Translations under genes and position numbers: made by a program
In this document: positions 9,162 through 13,924 of the stretch, piece by piece
Numbering within the stretch: the stretch's first letter is position 1
How the letters are laid out: each line of letters begins with the position of its first letter
Source of the DNA: Elusimicrobiota bacterium
GTDB lineage: Bacteria; Elusimicrobiota; Elusimicrobia; UBA1565
NCBI GenBank assembly: GCA_016218495.1
Contig: JACRDU010000066.1
Coordinates: 1 to 41,527 of the forward strand
DNA: 41,527 nucleotides
Reading direction: 5' to 3'
The notes under the pieces: generated by a model
Database searches by the model: none
Seen by the model: the letters and a program-made list of their open reading frames with translations, nothing else
Told to the model about the DNA's origin: nothing

Positions 9162-9407
9162 ATGAAAACCTGCCGCCGCTTCCTTCACCCTGACTTGTTG
9201 ACGCCAGCGGAACGCCTGGAGCGGTTCGCGGAAGTTCTCGCCGCCGCCTGCGCGCGCCGCGCACATGGAGCGCAGCCGGACACGCAGCGGGCCCAGTCCG
9301 CCAGCAGCCCCGACGTTGGACCGCGACCAGACACGGAAGGGCTCGCAAGAGACCCGAACGCCTGTTATACTAAAGTATATACTTACATGCCGCGGGAGGA
9401 GCGATAA
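9162..9407 (+). CDS. Small protein preceding the serine recombinase
   Basis: An 81-aa ORF whose TAA stop shares its last base with the recombinase ATG (TAATG), so it is translationally coupled. It contains LTPAERLERFAEVLAAACAR, a helical segment of a type often seen in small ORFs just before large serine recombinases. The C-terminal half is low complexity. There is no strong Shine-Dalgarno. It could be a recombination directionality factor or merely an accessory protein; nothing in the sequence decides this. Confidence 0.5.
   Translation: MKTCRRFLHPDLLTPAERLERFAEVLAAACARRAHGAQPDTQRAQSASSPDVGPRPDTEGLARDPNACYTKVYTYMPREER
9374..9383. promoter_or_regulatory. Palindrome AGTATATACT, candidate operator (copy 2)
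   Basis: Identical to the 10-mer at 4736-4745, here within a 12-bp palindrome AAGTATATACTT and directly after TATACT (9366-9371). It ends 23 bp before the recombinase ATG. The position suits repression of the recombinase by the element's small HTH protein. Confidence 0.5.
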
Positions 9408-11122
9408 TGCCAGAGCAGACCAGCAAGCCGCCCGTCTGGGTCGCCATTTACACGCGCAAGTCCACCGACGAGAACATGGGCGGATTCAATTCGTTGCAAT
9501 CCCAGCGTGAGTACTGCTTGCGTCACATCAAGTCCCGCGAATCGGACGGCTGGCGTCTATATCCCGAGGAGTACAGCGACGCGGGCTGGACTGGAGGCAA
9601 CATGGACCGCCCCAGCTTCCAAAGACTACTGGCCGACGCCCAGGCGGGAAAGTTCCAGGCGGTCGTCAGCTACAAGATGGACCGCATCAGCCGCTCCACG
9701 CTCGACTTTCTCCAACTCCTTGTCCTCCTCGACAAGCTCGGCATTTCGTATGTGAGCGCGACAGAACCGATTGACACGAGCACACCCGCGGGACGTATGC
9801 AGCGCGTGGTAATGATGAGCTTCGCACAGTTGGAGCGGGAAATGATTTCTGCCCGTACCCGCGACAAGATGGCAGTCATGGCGCAAAAGGGAAAGTGGTT
9901 GGGCTCCAATCCGAAGTTGGGCTACGACTACGCCCGGAAGAAGAAGGTCCTTGAGGTCAACGAGGAGGAGGCCGTGCAGGTCCGCGAAGTCTTCCAGACC
10001 TACCTGCGAGTGAAGTCCCTGGGCGAGACGGCCAAGGCCGTCACCGCCAAGGGCTACCGGATGAAGACCTGGACTACCGAGGAGGGACACCGGAAGGGCG
10101 GGGCCCGGTTCAGCAAGTGCAGCCTGGGTGCGCTGCTGACCAGCCCCATTTACCTCGGGAAAATCAGGCACAAGGGCAAGCTGTACGACGGAGAGCATCA
10201 GGCTATCGTTGACCCCACCGTGTTTGAGGCCGTCGGCCAAGCGCTCCGGGAGAACCGCCGCGGCGTCGTTTCCCGGGTCAAGAGCGAGGCGGCCTACACC
10301 TTCCTGTTGCAAGGGCTGCTGCGCTGCGCCTGCTGCGGCTCCTCCATGACGCCGCATTTCGTCTACAGCCGACTCCGGAAGAAGGTCCACTACTACACCT
10401 GCCTGTCCGTTCAGAAGCATGGCAAGGAGGCCTGCCCGGCCCGCCGCGTCCCGGCCCTCGCGGTGGACCGCTTCGTGGCAGAGCGCCTTGCGTACCTGGC
10501 GAACCAACCTGAGGTGGTCGGCCGGATTGTCGAGCAGGCCAGGGACACCGCGCGGGATGTGCTGCCCGAGCGTGTCCAGGAGAAACGCCAGACCGCCGAG
10601 GAGCTTGCCAAGGTCGAGCTTGAGTTGCAGAACGTCATGGGGGTCCTGGGAGAGGAAGGCCCGAACTCGCCGCGCAAGAAGCTGCTGCTGGAACAGCTCG
10701 ACCGCGTGGCCGCCCGCCGCGAGGAACTGCGGACCAAGCTGGACGGGCTTGCGCACGAAATCCGCGGCCTGGAGGAGCGCAAGGTCGAGGCCCCGTCCGT
10801 CCTGGCCGACCTCCAAGGCTTCAGTCGTCTGCTGCCCGAAATCCCGCCCAAGGAGCAGCAGGAGCTTGTCCGGCTGCTGGTCAAGCAGGCGGTCTACGAC
10901 AAGAGGGCGTCGGAAATCCGGTTGGAGCTACGGCCCCTGCCGCCGGGCATGAAGTGGCGGGGCACCGATGGGGTCACCCACGTTTCAGGGCCGATTTGGC
11001 GGCCGGTGAGGGTGGGGGATGTGGCCCACGGGGGGCCTGTTTTGAACAGCGTAAAGAGTGGGGTGACCGACGGGGATCGAACCCGCAGCCTCCAGGGCCA
11101 CAACCTGGCGCTCTACCATTGA
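9407..11122 (+). CDS. Large serine recombinase (integrase) of the element
   Basis: A 571-aa large serine recombinase. The catalytic resolvase domain spans about 12-150, with the nucleophile S19 in YTRKSTDE and the YKMDRISRS motif near 89-97. The Recombinase domain is about 168-285, a zinc ribbon uses C307, C310, C332 and C343, and a coiled coil covers about 385-460. GGGAGGAGC precedes the ATG. It would cut and rejoin attachment sites to integrate or excise the element. The last ~20 codons (…GVTDGDRTRSLQ…) are the antisense of tRNA-His, so the reading frame runs into the target gene. The natural C-terminus on the circular form would therefore differ. Confidence 0.95.
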   Translation: MPEQTSKPPVWVAIYTRKSTDENMGGFNSLQSQREYCLRHIKSRESDGWRLYPEEYSDAGWTGGNMDRPSFQRLLADAQAGKFQAVVSYKMDRISRSTLDFLQLLVLLDKLGISYVSATEPIDTSTPAGRMQRVVMMSFAQLEREMISARTRDKMAVMAQKGKWLGSNPKLGYDYARKKKVLEVNEEEAVQVREVFQTYLRVKSLGETAKAVTAKGYRMKTWTTEEGHRKGGARFSKCSLGALLTSPIYLGKIRHKGKLYDGEHQAIVDPTVFEAVGQALRENRRGVVSRVKSEAAYTFLLQGLLRCACCGSSMTPHFVYSRLRKKVHYYTCLSVQKHGKEACPARRVPALAVDRFVAERLAYLANQPEVVGRIVEQARDTARDVLPERVQEKRQTAEELAKVELELQNVMGVLGEEGPNSPRKKLLLEQLDRVAARREELRTKLDGLAHEIRGLEERKVEAPSVLADLQGFSRLLPEIPPKEQQELVRLLVKQAVYDKRASEIRLELRPLPPGMKWRGTDGVTHVSGPIWRPVRVGDVAHGGPVLNSVKSGVTDGDRTRSLQGHNLALYH

Positions 11123-11147: not shown

Positions 11148-11258
11148 TACCGTTTCCGGCCGGGACGCGTCTAGGACTTAGGGCCCAGAAGGGCCCAGGC
11201 CCCCGGACCCTGCTATTGCGAGGGATGCCCCCTTACACTCATCCTAGAGGTGGGGGAC

Positions 11259-12767
11259 ATGAAGAAGATCATCACTCTAGCGACAGCGCTGGGCCTGGCC
11301 TGTGGGCTGGGCCTTCCCGCGCGGGCGCAGTCCGAGGACGAGTCGGCGCCCGTAGCCGCCGACGCCCCCGAGGAGGCCGCCCCCGCCTCCGAGCCGGCCG
11401 CCGCCCCCGCCAGCGACGCCCCTTGGAACGACGCCGTGCCCATCGAGACCACCGCCGCCCCCGCCTCCGACGAACCCGCGGCGCCGCCGCCCGCCGCTGC
11501 CGCGCCGGCGCTGCCGGCCGCCCCGGAAGCCGACGCGCCCCCGCCCGCCCCTCAGCCCGAGAAGTCCCGCAAGAAGGCCCGCCGCGCCCCGGCCTCGCTG
11601 AAGATCGCCAAGGTCCTCGCCCAGGGACGCCAGGCGGAACGCGCCCAGCAGTACTCCCGGGCGATCACCATCTACGAGCGGGCCACCCGCATCGACTCAT
11701 CCTCCGCCGAGGCCTTCCTGCACCTCGGCAACGCATATTTCTCCCGGGCCTTCGTGCACGGCAACGGCTCGGTGGACAAGGACGACGCCCAGGGCGCCGT
11801 CGACGCCTATGAGACCGCCCTGGGGCTGGACCCCAAGCTGGCCTCGGTCTCGAACCCTTACACCCTCTACCACGGCCTGTCGCAGTGCCACGAGGCCCTG
11901 GGCAACTATGGCAAGGCCCTGGCCTCGCTCAAAGGCGCCGCCAAGAGCAACCCCGACAACCCGATGCCCCACCTCTACGGGGCGCGCATCCGCACCAAGC
12001 TCGGCGAGACGGACAAGGCTTCGGCGAACCTCTACTGGAGCGCCCGCCGGGCGCTGAAGCTGAACATGTACCCCCAGCTCTCGAAGCTCGTCCGCACGGA
12101 CCCCATGTTCGCCGGCCTGATGGGCCAGCCGCGCAGCAAGGTCATCATGGAGTCCTTCGACGCCGTCTCGCGCGGCTCGCTCACCGAGGAGCAGGCCAAG
12201 GAGCGCATCCGGGCCGCCGGCACGGCCGAAGACCTGCGCGACGCGGTCCGCGACGTGCCGACCCTCTCGACCAGCCGGCCGCGGTCGATGGACATCCCCG
12301 CCGTCGACGAGGCCGTGATGGCCCGCATCGAGGACGGTCACCGCGCCTACGAAGCGGGGGCCTTCTCGGACGCCGCCGCCGCCTACCACGCCGCCGTCAC
12401 CGCCGACAAGACCCGCGGCTCGATGGACACCGTCATGCGCTCCCTCGTCTACGAACGGCTGGGCTCGGCCTACCGCCACCTGGGGCATGCCGGGGAAGCC
12501 TCCCGGGTGCTGTCCAAGGCCGTGGAATCCCTCCCGAACAACTCTTCTGCGCATTATGAGCTCGCGCTGTGCCTGGCCATCGGAGGGCGGCCCGGAGACT
12601 CCCTGTCCGCCCTCAACCGGGCCCTCGACACGGCGGCCACCATGCCCCAGCTGCGCAAGACCCTCATCATGGCCAAGACCGACCCCGAGCTGGCCTCCAT
12701 CCGGGACCTGCCCAGGTTCAAGCTCATCGTCGAATCGCACTCCCGCAAGCTCTCCGCCCGCCGGTAG
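11259..12767 (+). CDS. Exported TPR protein with Ala/Pro-rich linker
   Basis: 502 aa from the ATG at 11259, which has a GAGGTGGGG Shine-Dalgarno; a GTG at 11250 would add three residues. The signal peptide is MKKIITLATALGLACGLG followed by a cleavage site near ARAQ. Residues about 25-110 are an acidic Ala/Pro-rich linker. Two TPR blocks follow, about 120-270 (with 'YSRAITIYERATRI' and 'YGKALASLKGAAKSNPDNP') and about 345-480. It is probably periplasmic. The gene sits just upstream of the FNR-like regulator but has its own 3' gap of about 95 bp. No specific partner can be named. Confidence 0.85.
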   Translation: MKKIITLATALGLACGLGLPARAQSEDESAPVAADAPEEAAPASEPAAAPASDAPWNDAVPIETTAAPASDEPAAPPPAAAAPALPAAPEADAPPPAPQPEKSRKKARRAPASLKIAKVLAQGRQAERAQQYSRAITIYERATRIDSSSAEAFLHLGNAYFSRAFVHGNGSVDKDDAQGAVDAYETALGLDPKLASVSNPYTLYHGLSQCHEALGNYGKALASLKGAAKSNPDNPMPHLYGARIRTKLGETDKASANLYWSARRALKLNMYPQLSKLVRTDPMFAGLMGQPRSKVIMESFDAVSRGSLTEEQAKERIRAAGTAEDLRDAVRDVPTLSTSRPRSMDIPAVDEAVMARIEDGHRAYEAGAFSDAAAAYHAAVTADKTRGSMDTVMRSLVYERLGSAYRHLGHAGEASRVLSKAVESLPNNSSAHYELALCLAIGGRPGDSLSALNRALDTAATMPQLRKTLIMAKTDPELASIRDLPRFKLIVESHSRKLSARR

Positions 12768-12819: not shown

Positions 12820-12864
12820 TACCATGTTCCCGTTTCAGGGGAGCTCCCCTGAAGGGGTTTTTTT
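12820..12864 (+). promoter_or_regulatory. Promoter and structured 5' leader of the FNR-like gene
   Basis: An extended -10 (TGT then TACCAT, 12820-12825) predicts transcription from about 12832. The leader begins with the perfect 20-bp palindrome TTCAGGGGAGCTCCCCTGAA (12834-12853). The CCCC at 12846-12849 can pair instead with the GGGG at 12854-12857, which is directly followed by seven T and then the ATG. AAGGGG is also the only Shine-Dalgarno candidate, so one fold exposes it and the other hides it. The palindrome could alternatively be a DNA operator. Confidence 0.5.
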
Positions 12865-13578
12865 ATGGGATTTTCGAAGAAAGAGGCGCCGAACTGCGAC
12901 TGGTGCCCGGCGCGGAAGAACTGCTTCTACGAGCTTCTTGAGGACAAATCTTCGAAGAAAGCCTGGCGCGAGATCCGCATCGCCAACCGATTCCGCTCCA
13001 ACGAGACCGTCTTTTACGAAGGCGAGAACCCTTCGGGCATCTACGTGGTCTGCACCGGCAAGATCAAGATCCTCAAGGCGTCCCGCACCGGCCAGCAGCT
13101 GCTGCTCCGCTTCGAGAGCCCCGGCGACCTCGTGGGCCACATCTCCTCCCTGGCCGGCTGGCCCTACGCCGGCTCGGCGGAGGCGATGGAGGAGTCCGTC
13201 GTCTCGATGATAGACATCGAGACCTTCAAGAAGTTCCTGCTCCACCACCCGCGTTCGGCCCTGGCGCTGCTGCGCGAGGTCTCCCGGGACGTCCGCCGCG
13301 GGGAGGCGAAGGCGCGCGACATCGCCTTCAAGCCGGCGCGCGGACGCCTCGCCGGGACCCTGCTTCGGACCGTCCCCGAGGCGGCCGTGAAGAAGAACCA
13401 GGCCGTCATCAGCGGCCTCAAGCGCAAGGACATCGCGGAGATGGCGGGCCTGACCATCGAGACGACCGTGCGCCTGCTCAAGGACTTCGAGAACCGCGGC
13501 CTCGTCGCGCGCAAGGGCAAGGACATCCAGGTCCTCGACGTGGAAAAGCTCAAGTCCCTGTCCGGGCACTTCTCCTGA
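12865..13578 (+). CDS. Crp/Fnr-family regulator with FNR-like N-terminal cysteines
   Basis: A 237-aa transcription factor: cyclic-nucleotide-binding-type sensor (about 35-145), dimer helix, and C-terminal HTH (about 175-230). The N-terminus holds C11-x2-C14-x5-C20, the same spacing as the Fe-S ligands C20/C23/C29 of E. coli FNR. The position equivalent to FNR C122 appears to be Ser; the only other Cys is C63. The recognition helix reads LTIETTVRLL; Glu and Arg align with FNR E209 and R213, which read a TGA core. This suits the TTGAC sites just downstream. It is likely an oxygen, NO or redox sensor; whether it binds a [4Fe-4S] cluster is inferred. Confidence 0.9.
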   Translation: MGFSKKEAPNCDWCPARKNCFYELLEDKSSKKAWREIRIANRFRSNETVFYEGENPSGIYVVCTGKIKILKASRTGQQLLLRFESPGDLVGHISSLAGWPYAGSAEAMEESVVSMIDIETFKKFLLHHPRSALALLREVSRDVRRGEAKARDIAFKPARGRLAGTLLRTVPEAAVKKNQAVISGLKRKDIAEMAGLTIETTVRLLKDFENRGLVARKGKDIQVLDVEKLKSLSGHFS

Positions 13579-13604
13579 GACGCCCGCCCTGTTGAGCGCG
13601 GTCA

Positions 13605-13618
13605 TTGACCCAGGTCAA
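13605..13618. promoter_or_regulatory. Crp/Fnr-type operator, distal site
   Basis: TTGACCCAGGTCAA, arms TTGACC and GGTCAA around two bases, extended to 7-bp arms by flanking A and T. It fits the FNR pattern TTGAN6TCAA. The centre is about 65 bp before the predicted start of the Cys-peptide transcript, near the spacing used for class I activation. Confidence 0.65.
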
Positions 13619-13627
13619 TTACCGGCG

Positions 13628-13641
13628 TTGACCCGGGTCAT
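13628..13641. promoter_or_regulatory. Crp/Fnr-type operator, proximal site
   Basis: TTGACCCGGGTCAT, containing the perfect palindrome TGACCCGGGTCA. Its centre is 23 bp from the distal site and about 42 bp before the predicted transcription start, the class II activator position. It takes the place of a -35 hexamer, which is otherwise missing from this promoter. Confidence 0.65.
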
Positions 13642-13661
13642 AAAGGGCCTAGGACCTTTAT
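13640..13661. other. Inverted repeat between the operators and the -10
   Basis: ATAAAGG (13640-13646) and CCTTTAT (13655-13661) flank a CCTAGG palindrome, giving a nearly perfect 22-bp dyad. It lies between the proximal Crp/Fnr-type site and TACATT (13665-13670, the probable -10). It could bind a second regulator or form a 3' hairpin for the regulator transcript. Confidence 0.4.
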
Positions 13662-13676
13662 GGGTACATTGGTCCC

Positions 13677-13865
13677 ATGATCCAGATGATCCTCGTCAGC
13701 CTCTTGAGCCCCTTCTTCGCGGTTGCCCCATCGGCCCAGCTCGCCGCCGTCCGGCCCTGCGTCTGGCCGAACCGCTGCGGCGCCACGGTGTCCGCCCCCG
13801 CCATCGCCCAGTTCAAGCCCTGCGTCTACCCCAACCCGTGCGGGAAGACGCGCTCCATCGCCTAG
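13677..13865 (+). CDS. Small exported peptide with two C-x5-C repeats
   Basis: A 62-aa ORF. Residues 1-20 form a signal peptide (hydrophobic core MILVSLLSPFFAVA, likely cleavage after PSA). The mature part of about 42 residues carries two copies of (R/K)PCVxPNxCG, with C28/C34 and C49/C55, so four cysteines in two C-x5-C pairs. The spacing suits disulfides or metal/cluster binding. The ATG is 6 bp past a TACATT -10 and has no Shine-Dalgarno, so the mRNA is predicted leaderless. Two Crp/Fnr-type sites lie at about -42 and -65, and a strong terminator follows. These signals together argue it is a real gene. No family is recognised. Confidence 0.65.
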   Translation: MIQMILVSLLSPFFAVAPSAQLAAVRPCVWPNRCGATVSAPAIAQFKPCVYPNPCGKTRSIA

Positions 13866-13890
13866 GACCGATTCACCGCCACCACCGAAA

Positions 13891-13924
13891 GACGGCCCCT
13901 TCCACCAAGGGGCCGTCCCTTTTT
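13891..13924 (+). terminator. Rho-independent terminator after the Cys-peptide gene
   Basis: GACGGCCCCTT and AAGGGGCCGTC form a perfect 11-bp stem with a CCACC loop, followed by CCTTTTT. It closes the regulator/Cys-peptide unit. It lies 27 bp before the end of asnS, which reads in the opposite direction. Confidence 0.9.

Follow-up and report, generated by a model that had tools for sequence, protein, structure and literature searches.

Do an FNR-like regulator gene, the tandem operators that follow it and a small cysteine-containing peptide gene form a single regulatory unit, and what might the peptide be for? The question is raised by a 41,527-nucleotide stretch of DNA (the window; contig JACRDU010000066.1) that is part of a 4.15-Mb Elusimicrobiota genome (95% complete). 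Relatives of this genome include contigs of Elusimicrobia/Elusimicrobiota MAGs, mostly from groundwater. A preliminary description of the locus had listed a regulator, twin sites, a -10 element, a peptide and a terminator as one unit, and all of these elements are present where it had placed them (Table 1).

Table 1. Positions of features in the window.
Feature	Position	Strand	Evidence or remark
Exported TPR protein, predicted signal sequence	11250..12767	+	ORF, TPR families
GC hairpin followed by T run, just before regulator start	12833..12854	+	z -2.1
FNR-like regulator, 237 aa	12865..13578	+	Pfam, orthologues, alignment of 30
Codons of C11, C14 and C20 (Cx2Cx5C, FNR spacing)	12895..12924	+	Invariant in 30/30
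Codon of C63	13051..13053	+	Invariant in 30 aligned
Recognition helix core E199-T-T-V-R203	13459..13473	+	Alignment
Third, weaker operator TTGAGCGCGGTCAT	13592..13605	+	Abuts distal site, 13 bp from it
Distal operator TTGACCCAGGTCAA	13605..13618	+	Centred about -65.5
Proximal operator TTGACCCGGGTCAT	13628..13641	+	Centred about -42.5
-10 element TACATT	13665..13670	+	Fixed geometry in relatives
62-aa peptide gene, predicted leaderless and exported	13677..13865	+	
Unit 1 RPCVWPNRCG	13752..13781	+	
Unit 2 KPCVYPNPCG	13815..13844	+	
Intrinsic terminator stem-loop with U tail	13891..13917	+	11 pairs, z -5.07

Conservation of the locus

Comparison across relatives indicates that the regulator, twin operators and peptide are one conserved unit; conservation in relatives was the check on which the preliminary description had made its proposal depend, and the proposal withstood it. 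The peptide gene lies <=1.7 kb downstream of the regulator in 29 of the 47 genomes with a regulator orthologue, across three families, and downstream peptide genes are often two or three tandem paralogues. The other 18 orthologues have no adjacent peptide gene. Chance or artefact as the source of the pattern was rejected by site counts against shuffles, by motif distribution and by site-model scores. We are highly confident that regulator, operators and peptide promoter constitute a regulatory unit.

In several relatives, the stretch immediately ahead of the regulator orthologue also contains the C-terminal sequence of the TPR protein. Upstream of the TPR gene, the window encodes a large serine recombinase (resolvase, recombinase and zinc ribbon; 9407-11122), which possibly marks the edge of a mobile element. 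The hairpin before the regulator is terminator- or attenuator-like and was not seen upstream in the regulator orthologues read; its last stem bases overlap the likely Shine-Dalgarno sequence of the regulator (AAGGGG; 12833-12862). In one genus, the regulator gene has an extended -10 (TTGCTATAAT) right before GTG/ATG, giving a leaderless start, and no FNR-type site was seen at this promoter.

Regulator

The regulator has a cNMP_binding domain (PF00027) and a Crp-type helix-turn-helix (HTH_Crp_2, PF13545), both above cut-offs, and thus belongs to the Crp/Fnr family. Orthologues are present in 47 of 57 relatives (54-88% identity), and 30 of them were aligned. The three N-terminal cysteines are in register with C20/C23/C29 of FNR. 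At the place of the fourth FNR ligand, Cys122, the alignment offset to A. fischeri FNR (5cvr) puts an invariant Ser114, and the invariant Cys63, located elsewhere, is a putative substitute ligand. The AlphaFold model (pLDDT 72, pTM 0.53) has a fold match to Crp/GlxR/FNR; it supports the fold only and is too weak (pTM 0.53) to place Cys63 near the cluster motif. Against the curated Fnr model of NCBIfam (PRK11161), the regulator scores 65 bits, below the cut-off of 228.

In E. coli FNR, the residues that read the box are Glu209, Ser212 and Arg213 (PMC4505428). The Glu and Arg readers of the TGA core, said earlier to be kept in this regulator, are indeed invariant in all 30 aligned sequences (E199, R203); Ser212 is replaced by Val202, which may go with a TTGAC rather than a TTGAT core. 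The regulator shares fold, Cx2Cx5C register and Glu/Arg readers with the oxygen-responsive activators FNR, ANR and FnrL (E. coli FNR; A. fischeri FNR 5E44) and can be classed as a diverged member of a familiar group of regulators. It is probably an oxygen sensor with an iron-sulfur cluster, which in FNR is an oxygen-labile 4Fe-4S cluster.

Operators and promoters

As the preliminary description held, two sites 23 bp apart (centre to centre) lie directly 3' of the regulator gene, with 26 bp between the gene end and the distal operator. TACATT is 24 nt after the proximal site and 6 nt ahead of the ATG. From this position the mRNA is predicted to be leaderless, with its 5' end near 13677, and the proximal and distal sites would be centred at about -42.5 and -65.5. 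A search for sigma-70 promoters with a -35 found none at the locus, in agreement with the earlier reading of a -10 without a -35. Because sites in FNR-activated E. coli promoters are mostly within 4 nt of -41.5 (PMC3688515), the proximal site is in the class II position. Both sites had been assigned to activator positions, and this is supported for the proximal site, but the distal one does not have the textbook class I position (about -61.5); judged by comparison of sequences, -65.5 is a conserved 23-bp neighbour position. The array described as twin usually has a third site, which is also present in the window. Compared with the TTGATN4ATCAA-type site of FNR, TTGAYCN2RRTCAW differs at one base of the core; the 14-bp TTGA...TCAA palindrome and the class II position, as in FNR, are common to the sites of the order (PMC3688515; PMC4505428).

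With up to one mismatch, TTGACNNNNGTCAW occurs nine times in the window (1.4 in shuffles). Exact TTGACCNNGGTCAW is found at six places in the whole genome. Two of these are the operators in the window, another lies directly before a second peptide gene (C95), and the remaining three are elsewhere. An imperfect palindrome, AAAGGGCCTAGGACCTTT, lies between the proximal site and the -10 (13642-13659), and GGCCTA recurs between these elements in some relatives.

Among the 57 relatives, 41 have the tandem pattern TTGAN6TCA-N8..10-TTGN7TCA, with few matches in reversed controls, and the genes downstream mostly encode small exported proteins. The tandem pattern is missing from some genomes that have the regulator, and G022 (99% complete), which lacks the regulator, also lacks tandem sites and peptides. 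A weight matrix was built from 32 targets other than the repeat peptide (distal TTGAYCRNVATCAA, proximal TTGACCGnngTCAT) and applied to 55 peptide genes, with 409 upstream regions, peptide genes excluded, as controls. With this matrix, 52 of the 55 peptide promoters score higher than the 99th percentile of the controls (Mann-Whitney p = 2e-33, a value that overstates the independent evidence because the peptide genes are related by descent); the top-scoring control region is itself that of a regulon-type gene. The best spacing (among 15-32 bp) is exactly 23 bp in 49 of the 55 promoters, a TANNNT element follows the proximal site by 23-25 nt in 51, and the distance to the ATG is exactly 6 nt in 20. 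In 44 of the 55 (3.4% of shuffles), the distal site is itself preceded by a third one at a distance of 13/14 (or 26) bp. Genome-wide in the 57 relatives, the promoter pattern (site, 22..25 nt, TANNNT, 6 nt, ATG) gives about 90 matches in 40 genomes, compared to 6 in reversed controls and 17 when shifted by one base.

Regulon and trigger

The source genome has three peptide loci (C30, which is the window; C95; and C125), all with site arrays upstream, that of C125 being weaker. In this genome, tandem sites are also found before the gene of an exported, Pro-rich protein (C89) and before two genes for exported proteins of C-x-VDARFF type (C58, C125). Of the exported protein types tested, only one, a DUF333 protein from a single genus, falls in a Pfam family. 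Compared to FNR, this regulator has an operator core of TTGAC/Y rather than TTGAT, tandem 23-bp arrays and many small exported peptides and proteins as targets.

Several exported families were observed in this regulon. One has two invariant cysteines (C-x-VDARFF...C; L082, L088, L091, L094, L113-L117, L065:7046-7516), with no Pfam family and no significant fold match (AlphaFold and Foldseek). Another comprises Pro-rich proteins with a conserved C-terminus, FDG...LPExDLExEIG, behind tandem sites (L083, L085, L086, L095, L096, L102-L109, L112). In a genus that has no PCVWPN-pattern matches, tandem-site promoters drive exported proteins with a different short repeat, HILP(W/Y/S). A further target, a peptide of 53 aa, has a CX5C loop as well, in its C-terminal PPPCAINHTCH (L097, L240 and L119 cover both kinds of target).

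In relatives, the promoter pattern is also found before genes for pyruvate:ferredoxin and 2-oxoacid:ferredoxin oxidoreductases, PEPCK(GTP), fumarate reductase/SDH cytochrome b and glutamate-semialdehyde (P5C) dehydrogenase. Here a leaderless promoter is combined with one class II FNR-type site (L298, L300, L302, L313, L317), and the genes likely represent an anaerobic regulon of the order. Control of such metabolic targets would be expected of an FNR that responds to oxygen, though some of the promoters with one site may belong to another Crp/Fnr paralogue. A redox, NO or metal trigger for the peptide had been suggested previously; the Cx2Cx5C motif, together with similar promoters before ferredoxin-dependent enzymes, points to oxygen, which we consider the probable trigger, although the Ser in place of Cys122 weighs against it.

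Repeat peptide family

The peptide has the two (R/K)PCVxPNxCG repeats, the predicted export and the strong downstream terminator attributed to it earlier. It is a member of a family of 58 proteins with 178 CX5C units, 1-5 in each, and the unit consensus is A-Q-F-[QRKT]-[PT]-C-V(81%)-W(81%)-P(98%)-N(74%)-x-C. In this family, 356 of 361 mature cysteines are in CX5C pairs. No match was found in Pfam, NCBIfam, PHROG or PADLOC. Unusually for a Sec signal, 55 of the 58 host peptides have no K or R among residues 1 to 14. Neighbours at the dispersed peptide loci are unrelated, with no linked modification enzyme, exporter or immunity gene seen, and no receptor or processing protease for the peptides was found.

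A degenerate DNA pattern for PCVWPNxC was found in 29 of 341 genomes of the phylum and had no control matches; all of these genomes are in the order of the source genome except two of the same class. Among 84,980 species genomes, all multi-unit matches are from Elusimicrobiota or from records identical to the relatives. Single matches outside Elusimicrobiota and in IMG/VR are mostly chance, having no signal peptide, repeat or operator. No mention of the core motif was found in 5.4 million open papers, and no description was found of the family, of its repeats, of its control by an FNR-type regulator or of its capture by phages.

Multi-unit peptide precursors of the yeast alpha-factor type consist of near-identical units with variable spacers behind a signal sequence. 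The repeat family has the same architecture; here it is bacterial and redox-controlled, and processing of its multi-unit proteins is hypothetical.

Phage-borne copies

Three unrelated phage contigs encode a standard signal peptide with exactly one unit, and all three peptide genes are near terminase genes. JAGXTB010000072.1 encodes MKNTAIVVLLLLAWAALRPAPAAA/QFKPCVWPNTCAQ, and two further IMG/VR contigs encode MKILTLILTVTILAILLFGIPARA/QFQPCVWPNICAQ and MKLILALMLALLAFSASRAHA/QFRPCVWPYTCG, where the slash marks the expected signal-peptidase cut. JAGXTB010000072.1 is the sole exception to the chance single matches among the 84,980 species genomes. It has the same sequence around the peptide gene as IMG/VR contig 3300001798_000009, their lengths are within 3 bases, and the two appear to be the same contig. 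It is filed in a 'Sphingomonadales' MAG (L162), where it is probably mis-binned because it matches an IMG/VR phage contig and carries the peptide. IMG/VR scans with loop variants gave one known contig for Met and none for Tyr/Phe. On a fourth phage contig (L211, IMGVR_UViG_3300032053_000204), a host-like peptide protein with three units is encoded amid DNA-replication genes, and no site was found directly upstream of its gene.

Two of the single-unit genes have a host-type leaderless promoter (TTGACTCCGGTCA-24-TAAGAT-6-ATG and TTGATCTTGCTCA-24-TATCCT-6-ATG). The third has tandem TTGACGAAGGTCA-N10-TTGACCGAAATCA (23 bp) with a weak -10, TATGAA, and was missed by the promoter pattern. In 806 kb of viral sequence (both strands), the pattern occurs only twice, both times before the repeat peptide. 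TerL searches aimed at linking the phages to Elusimicrobiota gave only distant matches, TerL has no close relative among known phages, and no tyrosine-recombinase integrase was found on the contigs examined, which are possibly fragments. It is the peptide and the operator that suggest Elusimicrobiota as hosts.

Because the phages carry a canonical signal peptide and exactly one unit behind the same kind of promoter, one unit is enough for whatever purpose it serves in the phage. The functional element is therefore probably the single loop, and this speaks against a metal site made of four Cys. The number four, emphasized in the preliminary description, has no special meaning in a family with 1-5 two-Cys units and one-unit phage copies, and the suggestion of a metal or cluster binder within one chain loses its support for the same reasons.

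Proposed mechanism and alternatives

The explanation that we favor, and consider somewhat probable as a whole, is that the regulator is the FNR-type activator of the order, most likely active at low oxygen. The active form would bind TTGAYC-N2-RRTCAW sites arranged in tandem at a 23-bp spacing. By class II activation, the dimer on the proximal site (-42.5) would recruit RNA polymerase to a promoter that lacks a -35, and cooperativity would come from the distal dimer or dimers. From the promoter at 13677, a leaderless mRNA would be made for a small exported protein of the new repeat family, with the loop AQF-[QRKT]-[PT]-C-V-W-P-N-x-C in 1-5 copies. Each CX5C pair is expected to close as a disulphide loop outside the cytoplasm; the single loop would be the working unit and the host proteins its multi-copy carriers. 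The product would be an extracellular or envelope ligand made in anoxia, possibly a signal, copied by phages to their own advantage within a lysogen or an infected cell.

The regulatory part of this explanation has one competitor. Each genome searched has 2-12 Crp/Fnr homologues (E <= 0.001), so another homologue could use some of the sites, and the operators might serve a different paralogue, with the neighbouring regulator linked by chance of gene order. The 18 of 47 orthologues without an adjacent peptide gene fit such an arrangement, but adjacency recurs in three families, the neighbour is the orthologue shared across the order with invariant cysteines and readers, and the genome without it (G022) also lacks sites and peptides. 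We regard the chance linkage as very improbable.

That the peptides are an extracellular ligand or signal is itself tentative, though it is the reading of their function that we prefer, and several other functions can be weighed against it. Envelope elements, whose surface loops bind a fixed partner (S-layer, polysaccharide or pilus) and are remodelled under anoxia, would be in keeping with repeats joined by Ala/Pro/Val-rich linkers and with the Pro-rich exported proteins in the regulon; phages might then add one to mask receptors and exclude rivals. The proteins have no anchor, lipobox or known binding domain, however, and the single-unit phage form would be freely soluble, making this structural or adhesive role doubtful. 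Bufferins and other Cys-containing exported metal-binding peptides are small exported Cys proteins under stress control, and the repeat units could likewise bind metal, haem or thiols, buffering copper, zinc, iron or redox when oxygen falls. Richness in cysteine, nearly all of it paired, export and FNR-type control would suit such binders. Yet the Trp, Pro and Asn between the cysteines are highly conserved, as in a recognition loop, His/Met/Asp ligands are not, and the unit number varies down to the two cysteines of the phage copies; compared to bufferins, no modification enzyme adjoins the genes, no motif is shared and the two-Cys unit has a conserved W-P-N. Binding of this kind is unlikely. 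Antimicrobials or inter-strain toxins (bacteriocin-like), with the phage copies as lysogenic-conversion genes, are less likely still: the peptides are small, exported and phage-borne, with a short disulphide loop and several paralogues per genome, but they are Pro/Asn-rich rather than cationic amphipathic, have no PADLOC or PHROG match, and no immunity gene, exporter or modification enzyme adjoins their genes.

If the ligand or signal reading is pursued, the closest comparison is with the RRNPP systems of Firmicutes and phages, including arbitrium, in which short exported peptides are released from precursors and are also phage-encoded (PMC10075063, PMC13389391). The repeat peptide differs in being a CX5C loop in tandem repeats under an FNR-type promoter, and its signalling role is putative. 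No adjacent TPR-type intracellular receptor was seen at the dispersed peptide loci; the TPR protein encoded ahead of the regulator is predicted to carry a signal sequence. In the most far-reaching form of this reading, which is speculative and rather unlikely, anoxia-induced multi-copy precursors would release a CX5C loop that acts between cells, and unrelated phages would have independently captured a one-copy version with the host FNR-dependent leaderless promoter to read or manipulate that state.

Through the locus, evidence from sequence alone links the redox regulator of an uncultured lineage with an entire regulon of exported products. The phage copies point to a minimal active unit of about 12-13 residues, a length open to chemical synthesis and assay. 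Should the peptides prove to be signals, they would constitute a peptide communication system outside Firmicutes that is tapped by phages.
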